A stretch of 42,411 nucleotides of DNA from the NCBI GenBank assembly GCA_029262155.1, contig JAJCZW010000127.1, positions 1 through 42,411 on the forward strand, in the 5' to 3' direction. The DNA comes from Gemmatimonadota bacterium. GTDB lineage: Bacteria; Gemmatimonadota; Gemmatimonadetes; Gemmatimonadales; GWC2-71-9. The notes under the pieces were generated by a model. It did not search any database. It was not told where the DNA came from and saw only the letters and a list, made by a program, of their open reading frames with translations. Shown here one piece after another: positions 15,324 through 25,874 of the stretch. A program made the translations under genes and the position numbers. The first letter of the stretch is position 1; every line of letters begins with the position of its first letter.

Positions 15324-15529
15324 AAAACCCGATTTTCCGAGGAGATGTGGTGAAAATGGAAGCGGTGCAACCATTCGCACCAACGTTTGTCAAACTGCTA
15401 GAACACGAGAGCAACATCGCGCAAACTATTACGCAATAACTAGTTAGCTATAACAAAATACGCCGTGTTCGAGCCAACCCATCTGCAACCCAACATCAGA
15501 ACTCGAACACTTTGGTGTACCGTCAGTTG

Positions 15530-15544
15530 GCAACGCCTATGCCA
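15530..15544 (-). promoter_or_regulatory. Candidate sigma54 -24/-12 promoter upstream of pilMNOPQ
   Basis: Minus strand TGGCAT-AGGCG-TTGC, exact GG-N10-GC spacing, one mismatch to TGGCAC-N5-TTGC. Confidence 0.55.
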
Positions 15545-15755: not shown

Positions 15756-16970
15756 TTAGAAGAGCTGAGTCCATCCCCGTTCCAACGGTTGACCGAGCGA
15801 GGCCCCACCGACGGCTGCTTCGACGGCACATTTGGAATAGGTAATGTCGACGTTGCCGCTGATCGCTCCCGTCGTCACGACGTCGACCCCCTCAGTGAGG
15901 ATGGCGCCGGTGATCTTGTTCCCGTTCCCTGCGATCTTCATCTGTCCCCGAACGATGATGAGGCCTGACCACTCGAATCCGCCATTGATCTCCAGATTCC
16001 CGTCGACCAACAGAGTGCCCTGCCCACGACTTCCAGCGGCGAACTTGGTCCGCACACCGGTACCGTGCACGATCGGGAAGAATCCGTAGCACTCAGCAAC
16101 CGCACCGGCAACCGGCGGATTCCGGGCCGGCTCGCCAAAGTTGAGCAGGACTGGTTTGTCGCACGAATTCGGGGTGGTCGAAACATCGATCACCGGCCCC
16201 ACACCATTGTACACCGTGGGGTCGGGAAGCACCTTCACATTCGGTTGGGCTGCAAGGGTGGTGAAGGTGAAGTCAAGAAAGTTCCGGAAGGTCGCCGATG
16301 TAACCGAGGGGTCGTTCGGAGCCTCCTTGGTGGGGTATCCGAACACGTTGTTGAGGTCGGCGGCATTCATGCCGGTGGTTGTGGCACTCCGGATTCCCAC
16401 GAGGTCATCCGTATTCCCGGGGTCGGTCGGCGAACACATTCCCCAGCCCGGTGGATTGGCATTGAACCCTGTCACCGAAAAAGCGTTCCCGTTGAGCGCG
16501 ATTGGACTGGAGATGGTGATCGCCGCGTTCACCGAGATCGTCGGCTTGGCCAGACGGATCAATTGGGAAATCATCTTGGTTCCTAAGACCTGTCCCCCCG
16601 GCGTCATTCTGGAACCAACCGACCGAACCAGGAAAAGCGATTGATTCAACCGTCGGATGGTGTCGGTAAACTGGACCGTTCCACTCAGGGCCACGGTCGG
16701 CACTGCAAACTCTTGGGCAGGCAGGCCGGTATAGATCGGTAGCGCGTTATACAGCGCCGGATCCCAATTGGCGACGATTTGGCTGACACCAGCCTCGGCG
16801 GCCTCAGTGGCCTGTGAGCTCCAGACGGTGTTGGTCCCGGTCTGCTGCTCAATACGCCCCACGAAGAACGAACCTGCCACGAGAGCACCGATCACCACCA
16901 GGGCGAAGAGCGTCAGCACCAGCGCAATCCCACGTTCATCTCTCAAGGATGGCATCGGGTGAGTAGTCAT
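15756..16970 (-). CDS. PilX-like pilus assembly protein (minor-pilin module B)
   Basis: MTTHPMPSLRDERGIALVLTLFALVVIGALVAGSFFVGRIEQQTG...ATEAAEAGVSQ (PilX N-terminal-like). Confidence 0.78.
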   Translation of the reverse strand: MTTHPMPSLRDERGIALVLTLFALVVIGALVAGSFFVGRIEQQTGTNTVWSSQATEAAEAGVSQIVANWDPALYNALPIYTGLPAQEFAVPTVALSGTVQFTDTIRRLNQSLFLVRSVGSRMTPGGQVLGTKMISQLIRLAKPTISVNAAITISSPIALNGNAFSVTGFNANPPGWGMCSPTDPGNTDDLVGIRSATTTGMNAADLNNVFGYPTKEAPNDPSVTSATFRNFLDFTFTTLAAQPNVKVLPDPTVYNGVGPVIDVSTTPNSCDKPVLLNFGEPARNPPVAGAVAECYGFFPIVHGTGVRTKFAAGSRGQGTLLVDGNLEINGGFEWSGLIIVRGQMKIAGNGNKITGAILTEGVDVVTTGAISGNVDITYSKCAVEAAVGGASLGQPLERGWTQLF

Positions 16971-16992
16971 CACCAATCTCCTTCTGGCCGTC

Positions 16993-17895
16993 TCACGGCC
17001 GTAATGAATTCCGCAGGGCAACATCCGTCACCAATTGGTAGACACCAACTTGGGTCTGGCTCGCTCCCGCCAAATTCGTCCGACCCGTGGTCTCCCCATT
17101 GATCGTCACCTGAATGCGTCGCACCAACTGCACGTTGCCGCCGGGAAGGACCTCGTTGTTCGCACTATCGAAATAGCGAAAGCCGACTCCTGTCCCGTTG
17201 GCCAAAGGCCCTAAGACGGGTGTCAGGTTGAGTTCCCCTTGACTGATCGAGCGGGCACCAAGCCAGGAGCGTCCACCGGCAGCTAGCAGCCCATATTGCA
17301 TCCGCTCGTAGACTCGGATGGGTGAATTCACCTTCAGCTGACTCAGGGCCAGATTCGGCCCGCCAGGGTACGCACTCGGTGTCGGAAAGGTGAGGCGAAT
17401 GGCGGGAACCGCACCGCAGTTGCTAGCCGGATCGACCGCTGTCACCGTCAGGGGGATCCAAAGATCATCAATACCGGTGTTTTCGTCATTCTCGACAAAG
17501 AGAAGAAAACGGTCCGCGACAAGAGGATCCCGGATTCCGTAGAATGGTCTCGCTATGCGCATCTCTGTGAGCGTCGGAACCCCGCAAAGCAAACCGAACC
17601 CTCGTGCGGCATCGAAAGTGATCGTATTGGCACCGAGCGTCACCAGATCTGTACTAATCGCGGCGGCTGGTACCGGATTGGTTGTATTGCTGTCGTAGCC
17701 GATCTCTTTCAACTCGTTTGGTAAGGCCAGGGTAGCGGTCCGCACATTGGACTGCATGTCAACCTGCTGCATCTGGGCACGCGACACCCGTTGGGACGTC
17801 TGGACCATCTTCACGATGACAGTCCCCATCGTAGCGGTAATCACCATCGCGACGAGCAACTCGATGAGAGTAAAGCCCCGTTGGTACAGCGTCAT
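16993..17895 (-). CDS. PilW-like prepilin-type protein (module B)
   Basis: RGFTLIELLVAMVITATMGTVIVKMVQ type III signal peptide. Confidence 0.85.
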   Translation of the reverse strand: MTLYQRGFTLIELLVAMVITATMGTVIVKMVQTSQRVSRAQMQQVDMQSNVRTATLALPNELKEIGYDSNTTNPVPAAAISTDLVTLGANTITFDAARGFGLLCGVPTLTEMRIARPFYGIRDPLVADRFLLFVENDENTGIDDLWIPLTVTAVDPASNCGAVPAIRLTFPTPSAYPGGPNLALSQLKVNSPIRVYERMQYGLLAAGGRSWLGARSISQGELNLTPVLGPLANGTGVGFRYFDSANNEVLPGGNVQLVRRIQVTINGETTGRTNLAGASQTQVGVYQLVTDVALRNSLRP

Positions 17896-17905
17896 GGAAC
17901 CATCC

Positions 17906-18277
17906 TCAGTAACACAGAATGCGGGTTGAGACGGTGTCGGCCCGAGGCCGGCCCGAGAGTTGATAGGAGGTGATCGAGAGTACAGGCCGTGACAACCCGT
18001 TTGGCGCTACCACCCACTGCTCGGAGATACCCATCGTCGTGACCGGTCCGCCGCTGACAAACAGAACGGAAGTACAGGGCACGGGGGTGGAGCGCGCGAT
18101 CGTACGTAACTGATCAATGCGTTGAAGCGACACCTGCGTTGCGGTCGTGTTCCACTTCGCGCCACCAACGGTCCTCGTGACCATTGCGGAAGAACTCGCC
18201 AGCGCAAAGATCCCCAGACTCAGGATCACGATGGCCACGAGAGCCTCCACGATGGTGAATCCTTGGGTATTCTTCAT
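17906..18277 (-). CDS. PilV-like prepilin-type protein (module B)
   Basis: MKNTQGFTIVEALVAIVILSLGIFALASSSAMV. Confidence 0.85.
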   Translation of the reverse strand: MKNTQGFTIVEALVAIVILSLGIFALASSSAMVTRTVGGAKWNTTATQVSLQRIDQLRTIARSTPVPCTSVLFVSGGPVTTMGISEQWVVAPNGLSRPVLSITSYQLSGRPRADTVSTRILCY

Positions 18278-18708
18278 TGGATTCTCCCGTACCCGTTGAT
18301 GACCACACTGTCGGCCACACCTTGCCGGGTGAAACCAATGACATACCCAAGCCCCGGCGTCATCACCAACCCGGTGGGTTGGACCGTGATAGCGGCTGGG
18401 GCGCTCATGGTGACGCCGTACCGTCCATGGAGATCGGTCGTTTCCCCTACCTGCTGACTTACCCCTCCCACCAGGACCGTGACCCAGGCGCTGTCGGCGT
18501 CAAACTGGATCGAGGCAGGCACCCCCCGCTGGATCGCGTTGAGTCGTGCCTGTTGGTACATCGTGATAACCGCACTCCGGGTCGAGGCCACATCCCGAGA
18601 GACAGCCGAACGGCCGAGCCGCGGGACGGCAACAGCCACCAGAACGCCGAATATGACGACAATCACCATGGCTTCGACCAGGGTGAACCCTTCTTGGTTC
18701 TGCAACAC
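18274..18708 (-). CDS. FimT/GspH-family pseudopilin (module B)
   Basis: GTG start after GGTGGAGG SD; LQNQEGFTLVEAMVIVVIFGVLVAVAVPRLGRSAVSRDVASTRSAVITMYQQARLNAIQRG. Confidence 0.87.
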   Translation of the reverse strand: MLQNQEGFTLVEAMVIVVIFGVLVAVAVPRLGRSAVSRDVASTRSAVITMYQQARLNAIQRGVPASIQFDADSAWVTVLVGGVSQQVGETTDLHGRYGVTMSAPAAITVQPTGLVMTPGLGYVIGFTRQGVADSVVINGYGRIQ

Positions 18709-18753
18709 GGAACCTCCACCCTAAAGAGGGGGTTTGGGATCACCGCCGAATTG

Positions 18754-18770
18754 AGCAAGAAAAGGACCAG
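18754..18770 (-). promoter_or_regulatory. Candidate sigma54 promoter upstream of fimT/minor-pilin module B
   Basis: Minus strand CTGGTCCTTTTCTTGCT: GG-N10-GC spacing with TTGC -12 element; CACG part is weak. Confidence 0.42.
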
Positions 18771-18938
18771 GTGGGGTGTTCGCTTTTTATGTAGTCAACT
18801 CGTAGGAAAACCCATGACTTAGCGTTCTGGGACCAGGGCTGTATCGTTTCGCGACGGTGCAACTCGCCAGAGCAGAATTCTTTGCGGTTCCGATATGAAA
18901 CGACACCGGTGCCGGGTCGATCCCCGCCGCCAAACGAC

Positions 18939-19436
18939 CTAGCGGGAGGTAAACCAGACTGGGCGCACCTCCAGAACCACTGGCCGGAGCGTATCCAACG
19001 CGGGTGGCGAGGCTGTATCCCAGGTGCTTGCGAGGGCCGGGGGAACCCGGAGGGTAAGAAAGGTGACAAGCTGGCGAGAGGCCGTCCGACCCCCACCCTG
19101 AAGCCAGCTCGTGCTCAGCAGCGAAAATAGGTTGGGCGCATCTCGCCGGAGTCGGATGTCGACGGTGGTCCCCGGGCGCGGGTTCTTCCGTATGGTCCAC
19201 ACTGAATCTACCGGGAAGATACCGGGGTAGTTCCTCCTGGGATCCCACTGGGCGACAGCCAACAGCGCCTGCCGTTCGGCCACCGCCCCGGCCCATTCCC
19301 CAAGCCGGTACTGCGTGGCAGCTCGCTGGCTCGCAAGGGCAACGGCGAAGGCTGTGACCCCCGTCGTCATCAACACCACCACGAGAACCATCACCAAGAT
19401 GAGAATAAACCCCCGGTCCGACCGGGGAGGGGTCAC
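18939..19436 (-). CDS. PilX-like prepilin-associated protein (module A)
   Basis: DRGFILILVMVLVVVLMTTGVTAFAVALASQRAATQ; overlaps the PilW-like gene start/stop. Confidence 0.65.
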   Translation of the reverse strand: MTPPRSDRGFILILVMVLVVVLMTTGVTAFAVALASQRAATQYRLGEWAGAVAERQALLAVAQWDPRRNYPGIFPVDSVWTIRKNPRPGTTVDIRLRRDAPNLFSLLSTSWLQGGGRTASRQLVTFLTLRVPPALASTWDTASPPALDTLRPVVLEVRPVWFTSR

Positions 19437-20266
19437 CGCGAGTTCCGGGGTGACAGTATGAGGCTCACACTATCCGCCGTTGTCCGATGGCTGGCATACC
19501 CCCCAGCGATCGCAGAGAAGGGGCTCGACTGAACGGCCAGCCTGAACCCCAACACACCACCGACACCCGGTATTGCCGGGAAGGCTCCTGCTGTCATGGC
19601 AAGGCCCGTGAGTCCGGGGGAGCGAAGTGGTCCAAGCATCGGCTGGATCGATTCCCCTCCGGACATCGACCGCGCCCCCAACCACGTCGATCCAGCACTG
19701 CGGTAGGCGCGCCACTCCATGATCTCGAACCACGCGACGGGATACCCACTCCCCAGCCCGTTGAGCAGCAGCGGGGAAAGATTGGATACCCCGAGCCGAA
19801 GCGCCGCCTCCCCTCCCGGGCAGACGGCCCCACTTGGTGCCGAGTTGATGGCGCGAAGGACCCACCGATCATCGGAGGTGACGTCGAGCACGCCAGGGAC
19901 GAAGAGCAGAAGACTGTCCCGTCCGGCAGCTGGAAGGCGAAGGTTCCGTGGATCCCAAGAGATCAGAATCGCACCGGATCCAAGGGCGCAGATGCGGGAG
20001 AGCCCCCGGAAGGCTCGGTACCGCGCCTGACTGCCAGAAACCATGATATCGTTGGCACTCCCTCCGAGCACGAGGTTCCGCCACTCGGACGTCAATCGGA
20101 GTCCCGCCATGAGATGCTGGTGCGCCGCGCCCCGTTCGACCGTGGCTTGGGCCGCCTGCTGGCCACGACTGAACATCAGCATACTGATCATCCCGACCAC
20201 TCCAGCCAGGACCGTGGCGACCATGGTTTCGATGAGAGTAAAACCAGATTTTCTGGTCATGCGCAT
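19433..20266 (-). CDS. PilW-like prepilin-type protein (module A)
   Basis: MTRKSGFTLIETMVATVLAGVVGMISMLMFSRGQQAAQATVERG. Confidence 0.82.
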   Translation of the reverse strand: MRMTRKSGFTLIETMVATVLAGVVGMISMLMFSRGQQAAQATVERGAAHQHLMAGLRLTSEWRNLVLGGSANDIMVSGSQARYRAFRGLSRICALGSGAILISWDPRNLRLPAAGRDSLLLFVPGVLDVTSDDRWVLRAINSAPSGAVCPGGEAALRLGVSNLSPLLLNGLGSGYPVAWFEIMEWRAYRSAGSTWLGARSMSGGESIQPMLGPLRSPGLTGLAMTAGAFPAIPGVGGVLGFRLAVQSSPFSAIAGGYASHRTTADSVSLILSPRNSR

Positions 20267-20622
20267 CGAATGGCTGCGTGAAGGCTATCGCGATAGTCCC
20301 GGCCTAGGCTCATGGGGATGAGCACGTGGATACTGGCCTCGACCCGTCCGGGCTGAACGACCGTGACCCAGGACTCCTTCACCCCACTCGGCTGCACCAC
20401 CATGCCAGTAAGAGCAGCGCAGCCCGAGAGGGTTGCCGTCGCCTGCAGCGTTTCCATACGATTGATGAGAAGAACGGTCGCCTGACGCCGGATGGTGGCG
20501 AGCCGCAGCATTCCCCGGGCGGCGCTGAGGGTTGAGAGGGTGGCCAGGCCACCACCGCCAAGGACGACGAGGGCGATCAAGATTTCGAGGAGAGTCACCC
20601 CCCCAACAGAGTTCAGCCGCAT
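20257..20622 (-). CDS. PilV/GspI-like prepilin-type protein (module A)
   Basis: VGGVTLLEILIALVVLGGGGLATLSTLSAARG; G|V instead of G|F at the predicted cleavage site. Confidence 0.75.
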   Translation of the reverse strand: MRLNSVGGVTLLEILIALVVLGGGGLATLSTLSAARGMLRLATIRRQATVLLINRMETLQATATLSGCAALTGMVVQPSGVKESWVTVVQPGRVEASIHVLIPMSLGRDYRDSLHAAIRCA

Positions 20623-20692: not shown

Positions 20693-22006
20693 CTAGACTT
20701 CGAGTCCGTAGCGGCGAAGTTTGTAGAAGAGGGTTCGGAGGCTGACCCGAAGGAGTTTGGATGCTTCGCGTCGATTCCCCCCGGTGGCAGTCAGGGCTCG
20801 GGTGATGACCTGCCGCTCGAGCGCCTCGACCTGGGGTTTGAGCGCGAGCCCGTCCCCAACGAAGATCGGTTCCGTCTTCTCCCCGCCCTGGAGATCGAGC
20901 TGAAGATCCTCATGGTCGAGTCGGCCGGAAGCGCTTAGGGTACTGGCTCGTTCGAGGACTTGGCGGAGTCCCCGGATGTTGCCAGGCCAGTCGTGGGCGA
21001 CCAACGCTTGCAGTGCCCGCGGCGTCAAGCTGACCGATCGCCCACTCCGCGTTGCAATGCGATGCACGAAATGCGTCACGAGGGACGGAATATCGTCCCG
21101 TCGCTCTCGCAGGGCCGGAAGGGGAATCACCAAGGCGAACAGCTCGAGGAACGCTGGCTCGAACGCACCGGAAAGGACCGCCCGATCCAAGTCCTGATCC
21201 GAGGCGGCAATCCAGCGGGGGCCGGTATCGGTGTGCTGTCTCATGCGCGACGCGAGTTCGCCTTGGTGGGTCGAGGCAAGGGCGTGTACCTGACTCAGGA
21301 AGAGCGATCCGTCAGCGGCCGACGCGATGGCACCGCCAGGCATGGCCGTCGTCGTCGCGTCGCCGTGGGCATCCCCAAAGAGTTCTGTTGCCAAAAGGGC
21401 TTCTGGAATCGCGTCGCAGGTCATTCCGATGAAGGGGCCTCCACCTCGATCACTCCGCTGATGGATCGCCCGGGCGATGAACTCCTTCCCGGTCCCGGGT
21501 TCGCCGCGAATCAGCACGGGCGCCTGCTCGGCGGCAGCGCGATTGACCAGGGTCAGGACGTGGCGCATGGCGGAACTCTCGCCGACAAACTGCGTGTCGA
21601 TGGATGCTGGTGGGAGGTCGTGACCGACCGCGGGAGCGCTGCGAGTGCGCTCACGTTCTTCAGCTTTCCGAAGTGTCAGAAGCACTTCATCCACTGCGAA
21701 CGGCTTCCGAACGTAGTCATATGCCCCTTCCCGCATAGCAATGAAGGCGTCCTCCTCCGAGCCGAAGGCACTCATCATGATGACGAGTCCCTTCCCCCCG
21801 CTCGCCCGATACTGCCGCAGAAACGTGTGCCCATCGAGGCCGGCGAGTTGGACGTCGCACAGGATGGTGTCAAACGATTCCACCAGGGCTCGAGCAAGGG
21901 CCGATTCGCCATCGCTCTCGGTCACGACACTATGGCCCGCTTCGTCGAGCAGGAGGGCCAAGGGCCGCCGGAGGGCGAGGTCGCCATCAACGATGAGAAT
22001 GCGCAC
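20693..22006 (-). CDS. NtrC-family response regulator with degenerate AAA+ domain
   Basis: Receiver (CDVQLAGLDG, RKPF), Walker A GEPGTGKE, C-terminal Fis-type HTH GGNRREASKLLRVSLRTLFYKLRRYGL; GAFTGA and Walker B acidic residues missing; GTG start. Confidence 0.9.
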   Translation of the reverse strand: MRILIVDGDLALRRPLALLLDEAGHSVVTESDGESALARALVESFDTILCDVQLAGLDGHTFLRQYRASGGKGLVIMMSAFGSEEDAFIAMREGAYDYVRKPFAVDEVLLTLRKAEERERTRSAPAVGHDLPPASIDTQFVGESSAMRHVLTLVNRAAAEQAPVLIRGEPGTGKEFIARAIHQRSDRGGGPFIGMTCDAIPEALLATELFGDAHGDATTTAMPGGAIASAADGSLFLSQVHALASTHQGELASRMRQHTDTGPRWIAASDQDLDRAVLSGAFEPAFLELFALVIPLPALRERRDDIPSLVTHFVHRIATRSGRSVSLTPRALQALVAHDWPGNIRGLRQVLERASTLSASGRLDHEDLQLDLQGGEKTEPIFVGDGLALKPQVEALERQVITRALTATGGNRREASKLLRVSLRTLFYKLRRYGLEV

Positions 22007-22050
22007 AGGTCAAATCTCGATATCCACGTACGGGGTGAGTAACGACGCAA

Positions 22051-22083
22051 AATGGGGCGGGGTCCAGAGACCGCCGCCCCATT
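22051..22083 (-). terminator. Hairpin terminator downstream of pilA
   Basis: AATGGGGCGG...CCGCCCCATT stem with inner GGTC/GACC pairing, followed on minus strand by TTTT. Confidence 0.65.
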
Positions 22084-22121
22084 CAGCGCCTGATGTTACA
22101 GACGGTTTACCACACTCCTGC

Positions 22122-22514
22122 TTAGGCGCAACCAGGCGCACCCTCGGCAGTCGCCGGGGCCAGCACCGCAGCGCCGTTCCCGAAGATCGCACAGGTCTGC
22201 GTCGAGCCGGTATTACTGACGGTCGCGTTCCAACCGGTGCCACTGATCGCGGTGGCAATCGTGTTACCAATGGTCGGTACGAACGCCGCGGTACCCTTCG
22301 CTTGCTTGGCGCCAATCGCACCAGCATAGATGTTGAAGTCCGCGAAGTGCGCTTCCTGAGCGGTCACCATGTTCCGGAGATCCGACTTCATCCCGGCGAT
22401 GATCGCCTTTTCCTTGGTGTTGGCGAACTTCGGAATCGCGATCGCGGCAAGAATACCGATAATCACGACCACGATGAGCAGTTCGATCAACGTAAAGCCC
22501 TTACGATTCGACAT
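22122..22514 (-). CDS. pilA: Type IV major pilin
   Basis: MSNRKGFTLIELLIVVVIIGILAAIAIPKFANTKEKA; SD GGGGAGGAAGT before ATG at 22514; two Cys near C-terminus. Confidence 0.95.
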   Translation of the reverse strand: MSNRKGFTLIELLIVVVIIGILAAIAIPKFANTKEKAIIAGMKSDLRNMVTAQEAHFADFNIYAGAIGAKQAKGTAAFVPTIGNTIATAISGTGWNATVSNTGSTQTCAIFGNGAAVLAPATAEGAPGCA

Positions 22515-22603
22515 ACTTCCTCCCCTTGGGTTTGTTTCCTGCATTTGAGCGTAACTCGTACTTCCTGAACAACTGGGTTTGATTGCTCCCGGGATATGAT
22601 GTA

Positions 22604-22620
22604 AGCAACCAGCGTACCAA
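22604..22620 (-). promoter_or_regulatory. Candidate sigma54 promoter of pilA
   Basis: Minus strand TTGGTACGCTGGTTGCT vs YTGGCACGRNNNTTGCW: GG-N10-GC spacing, two mismatches; about 90 nt upstream of pilA ATG. Confidence 0.75.
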
Positions 22621-22815: not shown

Positions 22816-24198
22816 TCACACCGTCGACTGAACCGCCTGTTCTTCATACCGGCTGAGTTTCCGGTAGAGCGTGGAGGGATCAATACCCAACACCTCTGCT
22901 GCCCGGGTCTTGTTTCCTCCCTCGGCTTGAAGCACCCACATGATATAGGCTCGCTCAATCACCTCGAGTGACGGGTTGGGGGTGGCTCGCTCGGTGACGA
23001 GTGGTTCCTTCCGACGCCGAGTGATCCGTTCCGGCAGCGATCCTGGATCGATCAAGGTGCCTTTCGTCATCACGACGGCATGTTCCAGGGCGTTTTGGAG
23101 CTCCCGGACATTTCCGGGCCAGTCGTACACGACCATCGCGTCCATCGCTTCGGCGCCCAGGGCCTTGGGTTCATCTCCCAGCTCGGTCGCGAGTTCCTGT
23201 AAGAAGGTTTCGATGAGGAGCAGCAGATCTTCCCGTCGATCCCGGAGCGGAGGCAGCTCGAGCGCAATTACGTTCAGACGGTAGAAGAGGTCAGAACGGA
23301 AGTTTCCGCGCCGGACCTCCTCCTCCAGGTCCCGATTGGTGGCCGCGATGATGCGCACGTCGACCGGAATGGTTTCGGTGGCTCCGACCGGAATGACCTC
23401 CCGTTCCTGCAACACACGGAGGAGCTTGATCTGGAGCGACGGGGGCATTTCGCCGACTTCGTCGAGGAAGAATGTCCCTCCTCTGGCCGCTGCAAAGAGA
23501 CCCTGTTTGTCGCGTACCGCACCGGTGAACGAGCCCTTCACGTGCCCGAAAAGCTCGCTCTCGAGGAGATTTTCGGGAAGGGCACCGCAGTTAATCGAAA
23601 GAAAGGGGCCATCGATCCGCTGGGACAGATTATGGAGATAGTGCGCCACGACCTCCTTGCCGGTACCGCTCTCGCCTTGGATCAGCACGGTGGATCCGGT
23701 CGGGGCCACCTGTTCGGCGAGTCGAAGCACTTCATTGAAGCTCTTGGACTTGCCGATCGGTCGGCTGAGCGTTTCCCCCTCGCGACGTCGGAAGTCCTGT
23801 TTGAGCAGCTTGTTCTCAACTCGAATGTGGCGGAACTCGCAGGCCCGCCGGAGAATGACGAGCATTTCGTCATTCGAGAACGGTTTCTGGATGTAGTAGA
23901 ACGCTCCGGCATTCACGGCGGCAACAGCTGTTTGGAGTGACGCCTGAGCGGTCATGAGGATGACCGGGGTCATCGGGTCCTGGTCTTTGGCTGCCTCCAG
24001 GATATCGAGACCGGTGACTTGGGGCATGCGGACATCCGTAAGAACGATGTCGTGGTTGCCCGACCGAATCTGTTCCAGCCCCGCTTTGCCACCCTGCGCT
24101 GTGGTGACATCGAACCCCTCCTTTCGGAGGAGAATCCGGAGGGTATCCAGAATCCCGGACTCGTCGTCGACAACCAGCACTGATGGTTTCTGACTCAT
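22816..24198 (-). CDS. pilR: Sigma54-dependent response regulator PilR
   Basis: Receiver + AAA+ with GESGTGKE, GSFTGA, GGTFFLDEVGEM, FRSDLFYRL + Fis HTH; follows pilS with 4-nt overlap. Confidence 0.93.
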   Translation of the reverse strand: MSQKPSVLVVDDESGILDTLRILLRKEGFDVTTAQGGKAGLEQIRSGNHDIVLTDVRMPQVTGLDILEAAKDQDPMTPVILMTAQASLQTAVAAVNAGAFYYIQKPFSNDEMLVILRRACEFRHIRVENKLLKQDFRRREGETLSRPIGKSKSFNEVLRLAEQVAPTGSTVLIQGESGTGKEVVAHYLHNLSQRIDGPFLSINCGALPENLLESELFGHVKGSFTGAVRDKQGLFAAARGGTFFLDEVGEMPPSLQIKLLRVLQEREVIPVGATETIPVDVRIIAATNRDLEEEVRRGNFRSDLFYRLNVIALELPPLRDRREDLLLLIETFLQELATELGDEPKALGAEAMDAMVVYDWPGNVRELQNALEHAVVMTKGTLIDPGSLPERITRRRKEPLVTERATPNPSLEVIERAYIMWVLQAEGGNKTRAAEVLGIDPSTLYRKLSRYEEQAVQSTV

Positions 24199-25874
24199 GC
24201 AGGCTCCTCTGTCCGCCAGGTCGCGTGAAAGAATATAGTAAAAGTGGTCCCTCGCCCTGGTGTCGATTCCAGCAACACCAATCCGCGATGGGCCTCCACT
24301 GCCCGTTGCACGATCGCGAGGCCCAAGCCGCTTCCCCCGGCTCGGCCTGAGACGAAGGGCTGAAAGAGCCGTTCGCGCAAGTCAGGCTCGATCCCCGGAC
24401 CGTCATCCTGGATCTGGAGCCGGACGGGGGAGTGGATGTCGCTCCCGATTGGGAGCGCGGCCGGGGAGGGTTGGTCGATCGTGACAAGCACTTCGCCCTT
24501 CCCCTCGCATGCCTGCACCGCGTTGAGTACCAAATTGGTGACAATCCGGTGGAGGAGATCTTCGTCGGCATCAAGATGCACCTGATCTCCCGCCACCCGG
24601 ACCACCACCCCTGCCCCGCAATCGGGATGTTCGCGGACCAAGGTGACCGCTTGGACCGCCACGGCGTAGAGATTGACCCGGGAGAAGTCGTGCACACTCA
24701 CCCGGGAGAAATCGAGGAACTCGCTCAGGAGACGACTCAGACGATCACTTTCCCGAACGATCAACTGACCCAGGGTGCGGTCGTCGTCATCGGCTTGCAC
24801 CGAGCGGGCGAGCTGTTCAACGGAACTCCGGATCGAAGCCAAGGGGTTCCGAATCTCATGGGCCAGGGACGCACTCAGTGCGGCCACCGCTTCAAGTCGT
24901 TCCGCCCGGGAGCGGAGTTCTTGGATGTGTATCGAATCCGAAATATCCGTAAAGATCGCGGTGACGGCCGGCAACGACTCGAGCTGCCGTTCGAAGGTTG
25001 TCGTGCTTAGACCGATGGGAAATGAGGTCCCGTCGGCGCGATGCACCAATCCTTCGCCCCGCGTTACCCGATCTTGTTCATCCAACCCTGCCACCATCGC
25101 TGCATGGAGATCGGGCGCCCGGGCCTTGAGCGAGTCGAGGACTGGTCGCCCCAGGAGGCGCTCACCGTTGAGTTCGAGCAACCGCTCTGCGGTCGGGTTC
25201 ATAAACGCCAATCGACCGTGCCCATCGACCGTCATGACACCAGTCCGAATACTCCGCAGTATCTCGTCGGCCTCCAGTCGGATCCGCTGCAACTCATGCT
25301 TCAATTTCGACTGCTCGGTCGCGGCGACTTGCAGCCGGCGGCTGAGCACGCTAACCATGAGGAAGACAAAGGCAAAAACCGCGAGCTGCCCCAGTAGAAT
25401 CGGGATTTCGACCCCCGTCTCGACCAAGGTCCGATCCAGGAGGTAGAGCAGCAATGCCACCAAGGTCACGACGCCGCCACCCGTCCCCGGCATAAGGAGA
25501 GCATATCCGGCGATGAGGACCACAAAGAGAGACGCAAGAGCGGTTGAGGCCCCTTGGCCGTAGTGGACCAGGGCAAGGACAAGGATCAGGTCGACTGCTG
25601 CTTGCACCCCAAAGAAGACCGTACCCGGCTCAACTTTCCGGACCCAGACGGCGTGCCCGGCATACGCCGACATCGTTCCGGCGAGGAGCACCACCAGCGC
25701 CAGGAGGAAGGCCACGCCCGGCTGGGAGCTGAACATCCACCCCGCCCATATGAGGGCAGCAACGGCGACGACGATACGACCAATGAGGATGCGATGTAGG
25801 AGGAGGCGTGGATTCAGGAATCGTGGAACAGCCTGAATAGGATGGGTGCCGGTATCAACGCGTCGGGACTCCAT
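24195..25874 (-). CDS. pilS: Membrane PAS-containing sensor histidine kinase PilS
   Basis: N-terminal TM segments, PAS, SLAHEIRNPLASIRSSVEQL (H-box), HATPase N/G boxes; coupled to pilR. Confidence 0.92.
   Translation of the reverse strand: MESRRVDTGTHPIQAVPRFLNPRLLLHRILIGRIVVAVAALIWAGWMFSSQPGVAFLLALVVLLAGTMSAYAGHAVWVRKVEPGTVFFGVQAAVDLILVLALVHYGQGASTALASLFVVLIAGYALLMPGTGGGVVTLVALLLYLLDRTLVETGVEIPILLGQLAVFAFVFLMVSVLSRRLQVAATEQSKLKHELQRIRLEADEILRSIRTGVMTVDGHGRLAFMNPTAERLLELNGERLLGRPVLDSLKARAPDLHAAMVAGLDEQDRVTRGEGLVHRADGTSFPIGLSTTTFERQLESLPAVTAIFTDISDSIHIQELRSRAERLEAVAALSASLAHEIRNPLASIRSSVEQLARSVQADDDDRTLGQLIVRESDRLSRLLSEFLDFSRVSVHDFSRVNLYAVAVQAVTLVREHPDCGAGVVVRVAGDQVHLDADEDLLHRIVTNLVLNAVQACEGKGEVLVTIDQPSPAALPIGSDIHSPVRLQIQDDGPGIEPDLRERLFQPFVSGRAGGSGLGLAIVQRAVEAHRGLVLLESTPGRGTTFTIFFHATWRTEEPA

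Follow-up and report, generated by a model that had tools for sequence, protein, structure and literature searches.

A degenerate regulator gene in a pilus gene cluster

Which function can an NtrC-type response regulator serve once it has lost the motifs for sigma54 activation, and why would a pilus gene cluster keep it? This question is raised by a gene, here called X, in the window, by which we mean the whole stretch of 42,411 nucleotides that was analyzed. Along the minus strand lie, in this order, pilS, pilR, a sigma54-type promoter, pilA, X, a set of PilV/PilW/PilX-like genes, a second set of FimT/PilV/PilW/PilX-like genes, and pilM to pilQ. HK2 denotes a second PilS-like histidine kinase gene found in relatives. 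The features are as follows, with the basis of each call in brackets:

24195..25874, minus: pilS, membrane histidine kinase of PilR (ORF, synteny)
22816..24198, minus: pilR, intact NtrC-type activator (motifs, Pfam)
22604..22619, minus: sigma54-type -24/-12 promoter of pilA, TGGTACGCTGGTTGCT (score 14.5 of 15)
22122..22514, minus: pilA, major pilin (ORF, Pfam)
22052..22082, minus: GC-rich hairpin followed by ATTTT, 3' of pilA (sequence reading)
22007..22121, minus: gap of 115 nt between pilA and X, the position of HK2 in relatives with an intact X (synteny)
20693..22006, minus: X, degenerate PilR2-type response regulator, REC-AAA+-Fis HTH (ORF, translation, Pfam)
21662..22006, minus: receiver domain of X, residues 1-115 (motif table, site counts)
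21107..21586, minus: AAA+ core of X, residues 141-300 (motif reading, site counts, AF2 model)
20873..21106, minus: AAA+ lid of X, residues 301-378, with the sensor II motif HDWPGNIRG, Arg kept (Pfam, site counts)
20696..20839, minus: Fis-type HTH of X, residues 390-437 (HTH identity to intact orthologues)
18939..20622, minus: first minor-pilin set (PilV-, PilW-, PilX-like), immediately 3' of X (Pfam)
18754..18769, minus: weak sigma54-like site, TGGTCCTTTTCTTGCT, 61 nt 5' of the second minor-pilin set, whose fimT-like gene lies at 18708 (score 13 of 15)
15529..15544, minus: sigma54-type site, TGGCATAGGCGTTGCC, 5' of pilM, also present in degenerate and many intact relatives (sequence scoring)

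X is a real open reading frame of 437 amino acids, running from a GTG start at 22006 to 20693. The first-pass annotation had placed the gene correctly and missed that it lies on the minus strand; the plus-strand translation of 20693-22006 does not give the X protein. The pilA gene starts with an ATG at 22514, preceded by AGGGGAGGAAGT, and a longer open reading frame starts at 22544. The hairpin 3' of pilA resembles a terminator or attenuator and may act as such. Two successive minor-pilin sets separate X from pilM (15756-20622, minus strand), and some relatives also carry duplicated sets.

Domains and motifs of X

Motif reading and Pfam both bear out that X has a receiver domain, a Walker A motif (GEPGTGKE), and a Fis-type HTH, as noted in the first-pass annotation. 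The Pfam domains detected were Response_reg, Sigma54_activat (partial), AAA_lid_14, and HTH_8. In the minus-strand translation, the segment corresponding to ELFGHxKGAFTGA is indeed replaced by ELFGDAHGDATTTAMPGGA, the Walker B motif reads DGSLFLSQV instead of GGTLFLDEI (DE to SQ), AATN has become AASD, and FEPAFLELFAL is found instead of FRxDLFYRL, so that both arginine fingers are missing along with GAFTGA. PilR (24198-22816, minus strand) proved to be a valid intact control, with GSFTGA, FLDEV, and FRSDLFYRL all in place. Sigma54_activat scored 97 bits in X, over residues 141-257 only, versus 239 bits in PilR, while the scores of Response_reg, the AAA lid, and HTH_8 were strong, a pattern that fits local degeneration. 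In the receiver, the phospho-acceptor pocket is intact (D51, the Ser of MSAF, and K101), and the recognition helix of the HTH, SLRTLFYKLRR, is the same in several intact relatives. The AlphaFold2 model of X (pLDDT 86) retains every domain, with the L1 region (215-218) disordered; by Foldseek, the nearest folds are NtrX, NtrC1, NtrC4, LuxO, FleQ, and VpsR.

GAFTGA contacts sigma54, and ATP hydrolysis by bEBPs, which sigma54 activation requires, needs Walker B and the arginine fingers. By architecture, homology, and fold, X descends from the sigma54-dependent bEBPs. Having lost GAFTGA, the Walker B acids, and the arginine fingers, it lacks what a functional bEBP has, and the earlier claim that X is unable to activate sigma54 is therefore well supported.

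Intact and degenerate orthologues of X

Orthologues of X were searched for in 288 genomes of the order, mostly fragmented drafts and probably MAGs, with an E cut-off of 1e-72, which more diverged degenerate orthologues may escape. They were found in 84 genomes, the window being counted among them, and 83 orthologue loci were taken with their flanks. All motifs are intact in 74 of the 84 orthologues. The ten degenerate ones belong to the window (genus g1), G001 (g2), G002 (g3), five species of g28, G008 (g9), and, partially, G092 (g14). Nine genomes from five genera, the window included, have lost GAFTGA and show an altered Walker B, which excludes chance or a sequencing error as the cause; the tenth, G092, has lost only GAFTGA and kept Walker B. 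The reading frame is open in all ten genes. Site counts in the degenerate group gave the Walker A residues G/G/T/G/K and the sensor II Arg in 10/10, the phospho-Asp in 9/10, and the Walker B Asp in 1/10, a pattern from which we infer that these proteins would still bind ATP and DNA, with hydrolysis uncoupled from sigma54.

The counts also bear on the idea that PilS phosphorylates X and that a non-canonical L1 still lets X work with sigma54. In the window's X the phospho-acceptor pocket is intact, pilA and pilM still have sigma54-type promoters, and mild variation of GAFTGA occurs in intact relatives, as GAFTSA in four genomes and as GAFTDA in Myxococcus. However, a GAFTGA-like sequence is present in 74/74 intact orthologues and in 0/10 degenerate ones, the Walker B Asp is lost in nine of these ten, the window's X has no arginine finger left, and L1 is disordered in the model. 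We regard this idea as very improbable. The four genomes with GAFTSA all belong to g51 and were counted as intact. GAFTDA occurs in PilR2-type regulators adjoining pilM, namely L240 of Myxococcus qinghaiensis and L038; the last Gly of the GAFTGA loop thus varies in such regulators even with the kinase present.

Loss of the adjacent kinase gene

In 73 of the 74 intact loci, HK2 lies directly 5' of X, with an overlap of typically 4 or 20 nt, indicating that the ancestor of X was the regulator in a second two-component system of the pilus. For G014, a sensitive search detected the end of HK2. X is thus a regulator of the PilS2R2 kind. In the examined loci it holds the corresponding position in the pil cluster, with pilA or the kinase gene on one side and minor-pilin genes or pilM on the other. 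None of the ten degenerate loci has an intact HK2, and mostly the gene is absent. The window has no adjacent cognate kinase gene, and no HK2 orthologue was found in the 115-nt gap between pilA and X or elsewhere in the window's genome. The association between kinase and motif state (Fisher p 4e-12) overstates independence, as there were about three to four independent kinase losses.

Decay of HK2 is caught at successive stages. In G094 (L121), the kinase gene has become a pseudogene, with a frameshift and an in-frame stop, next to an intact X, the sole such case among the 74 intact loci. G092 (L133) has only an HK2 scrap, RIVQGPVDYAR, between pilA and X, and its X has lost the phospho-Asp and carries GAFPGA in place of GAFTGA, with Walker B retained. 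In G008 (L143), HK2 is truncated to its membrane/HAMP part and X is degenerate. In the degenerate locus of G117, no kinase match was obtained, with only 228 nt visible 5' of X. Since G094 combines a broken kinase with an intact X and G092 a kinase scrap with a partial X, the kinase appears to go first, which suggests that kinase loss precedes the loss of regulator motifs.

Number of losses

In the rpoB tree (in which the unusable G106 row was disregarded), the window, G001, G002, and g28 form one clade with support 96/99, and a tree of X built without the motif region likewise places them together. One loss is thus common to at least four genera, the window included. G008 groups with intact relatives; since a single origin of all rpoB-sampled degenerate genes was not rejected (AU p 0.106), its independence rests on the kinase remnant and its tree position. 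In the X tree, G092 is clearly nested among intact relatives. G092 and G094, lying within a genus of intact genes, are separate losses, and the loss has recurred several times independently.

Close to an even call, though leaning slightly against, we consider a broader proposal: a recurrent route of kinase loss followed by loss of sigma54 activation, with ATP and DNA binding preserved, may have produced, in this bacterial family, a group of pilus regulators that have no kinase and do not hydrolyze ATP, the living intermediates G094, G092, and G008 showing the order of events. The genomes form a natural series across several lineages, from an intact pair through a broken kinase with an intact regulator and a partial regulator to a fully sigma54-dead regulator under selection. 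This series makes it testable which parts of an NtrC-type protein remain important after activation has been lost, here the HTH, Walker A, and sensor II, and not GAFTGA, Walker B, or the arginine fingers.

Purifying selection on X

Among the five g28 species, dN/dS of the degenerate X was 0.10-0.16 for the whole gene, 0-0.14 for the HTH, and 0.10-0.25 for the AAA core; intact pairs gave 0.03-0.19 in the AAA core. The values for the degenerate X come from the sister genus g28 only, because the window's own genus is represented in the sample by a single genome, and for the window the evidence is that the frame is open and the HTH conserved. In the HTH, degenerate and intact proteins are 60-70% identical, on par with the 69.5% among intact orthologues; the window's X reaches 66.6%. 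AAA identity falls from 78% among intact proteins to 40-49% for degenerate ones, and receiver identity from 75% to 35-61%. Receiver residues are eroding in g28 and G002, which argues against a single common phosphorylation-dependent role.

X might be a functionless remnant left by the loss of its kinase and heading for deletion. The missing kinase, the relaxed AAA core (dN/dS up to 0.25), the eroding receivers of g28 and G002, and the ongoing decay of the system in G092 and G094 all speak for such a course. Against it, the frame is open in all sampled genomes of the four or more genera with the shared loss, every domain has a dN/dS well below 1, the HTH is conserved at the level of intact orthologues, and Walker A is fully kept. 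With these values and open frames throughout, X was rejected as a pseudogene, and decay toward deletion is unlikely. By the first-pass annotation, intact motifs in close relatives would be a sign of recent pseudogenization or of a sequencing error. Relatives with intact motifs do exist, in other genera, but both explanations are refuted by the low dN/dS and by the clade in which the degenerate form is shared. As the DNA- and ATP-binding parts are selected in several genera, X has probably been repurposed and not abandoned.

The first-pass annotation had offered two roles for X, a sigma54-independent regulator or a dominant-negative partner of PilR. The latter would tune or damp pilA transcription through mixed AAA+ rings or DNA-bound complexes with PilR. 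Its location between pilA and the minor-pilin genes would suit such a partner, and with Walker A and sensor II retained a nucleotide-bound assembly with PilR could be conceived. Nevertheless, X and PilR are only 34% identical, the domain of X that has diverged most is the AAA core, the very part needed to fit into a PilR ring, and the window's X has neither arginine finger. Furthermore, where X is intact, it and its own kinase form a separate system alongside PilR in one and the same cluster. An X-PilR heteromer is not favoured, and we consider this role improbable; nor did the observations support the first-pass idea of a tuned ratio of pilin to minor pilins.

The first of the two roles turned out to be the best reading: as the sigma54-driving parts are lost, the host retains rpoN and an intact PilR, and X is under selection, a sigma54-independent, DNA-binding role accounts best for the gene. 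We consider it fairly likely that X is a passive DNA-binding regulator in the pil operon, orphaned of HK2, dead for sigma54, kept by selection, and probably binding ATP. In this scenario, the HK2 gene would have been deleted in an ancestor of the window's clade, and sigma54 activation lost afterwards with the GAFTGA loop, the catalytic acids of Walker B, and the arginine fingers. X would have stayed under purifying selection as a DNA-binding protein, probably one that still binds ATP and does not hydrolyze it. Its Fis-type HTH would hold it on the DNA, ATP binding may tune it, and in the window's genome its intact receiver may be phosphorylated by another donor. From there, X would act at a sigma70 promoter, as a repressor or a helper, or would be a competitor of an activator. 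The homology, the losses of the kinase and of the motifs, the purifying selection, and the recurrence are observations; DNA binding, ATP binding without hydrolysis, and the sigma54-independent mode are predictions.

Comparison with known regulators

NtrX belongs to a nitrogen-related system with the kinase NtrY. By Foldseek, NtrX of Brucella abortus (5m7n, 5m7o, 5m7p) matched the X model best; it was also a top PDB sequence match, with 28% identity. PilR of the window shares the NtrC-type architecture and the gene cluster with X, but is intact and belongs to the PilS/PilR system.

In Myxococcus, pilR2S2 has been described in the T4aP cluster (PMC6060248), and both PilR and PilR2 are required for T4P-dependent motility (PMC6211767). 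Among 46 matches in Myxococcus qinghaiensis, the best to an intact X was regulator L240, with a kinase gene before it and pilM after it; from this position, L240 would be the published PilR2 of PilS2R2. It resembles X in domain order and in its place in a T4P cluster. In contrast to X, which has neither the kinase nor the sigma54-activating motifs, L240 is intact save for GAFTDA and has its kinase. L039-L041, distant Myxococcus hits from plain similarity, were discarded as counterparts of X: they are paralogues, and no pil genes were found in their surroundings.

NtrC proteins of Caulobacter and Rhodobacter capsulatus without GAFTGA activate or repress sigma70 promoters (PMC10274813). Like X, they lack L1/GAFTGA and keep the receiver, Walker A, and HTH; they belong to another orthologue group, and Caulobacter NtrC keeps its kinase NtrB and a needed Walker B Asp, whereas X has lost kinase, Walker B, and arginine fingers. 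VpsR of Vibrio cholerae is a degenerate bEBP that acts at sigma70 promoters, with phosphorylation and ATP reportedly not needed (PMC10274813). VpsR matches X by sequence and fold (7v2b), at about 23% identity, and binds c-di-GMP, for which no site was identified in X. In having lost GAFTGA and kept the HTH, X agrees with the GAFTGA-less, sigma54-independent regulators such as R. capsulatus NtrC and VpsR; like them, it may act at sigma70 promoters. X is a kinase-orphaned, sigma54-dead PilR2 homologue under selection. In the literature searched, no paper on this type of locus was found, and surveys of sigma54 activators based on GAFTGA (e.g., PMC12316311) would drop this selected pilus-cluster regulator.

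Candidate target sites and sigma54 promoters

Just 3' of the X stop codon, a TGCA-N6-TGCA dyad occurs in 39 of the 74 intact loci and in none of the ten degenerate loci. Elsewhere in the intact loci, only 8 such sites occur in 987 kb, so the position is highly non-random, counted in the same sequences in which the dyad was first noticed. X of the intact loci may bind this dyad, judging from its position. The dyads after the X stop (L129-L165 and others) often come in two copies, 18 bp apart. Nine of the nearest intact relatives also have, 5' of the minor-pilin genes and around +85 to +110, a site resembling a sigma54 promoter (mostly TGGTACGNNNNCTGCC), and the dyad and this site plausibly represent the enhancer and promoter of the ancestral circuit. 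The correlation is partial, because several intact loci lack both; and as about half of the intact loci are without an exact TGCA-N6-TGCA, its loss does not split the classes cleanly. The idea that the minor-pilin sigma54 promoter was lost cleanly together with X function was likewise rejected, since several intact loci also lack the promoter. In the window, the 70-nt gap between X and the first minor-pilin set contains neither a sigma54 site nor TGCA-N6-TGCA, and no target site or promoter for X was found in the degenerate clade. Two g28 genomes have a TGCA-N6-TGCA 3' of the promoter of pilM; this site was set aside, as it is not conserved in their sisters.

The sigma54-type promoters of pilA and pilM persist in the degenerate genomes, and sites comparable to that of pilA lie 5' of pilA in many intact and degenerate loci. 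Together with the presence of rpoN in the host genome, this indicates that sigma54 control was lost only in the X branch. In the window, the sigma54-like site at 18754-18769 could put the second minor-pilin set under PilR. A TTGACA element lies nearer to pilM than its sigma54 site (15330-15544, minus strand), followed in many relatives by a TAGCGT-like -10 element, and the two may form a double promoter of pilMNOPQ.
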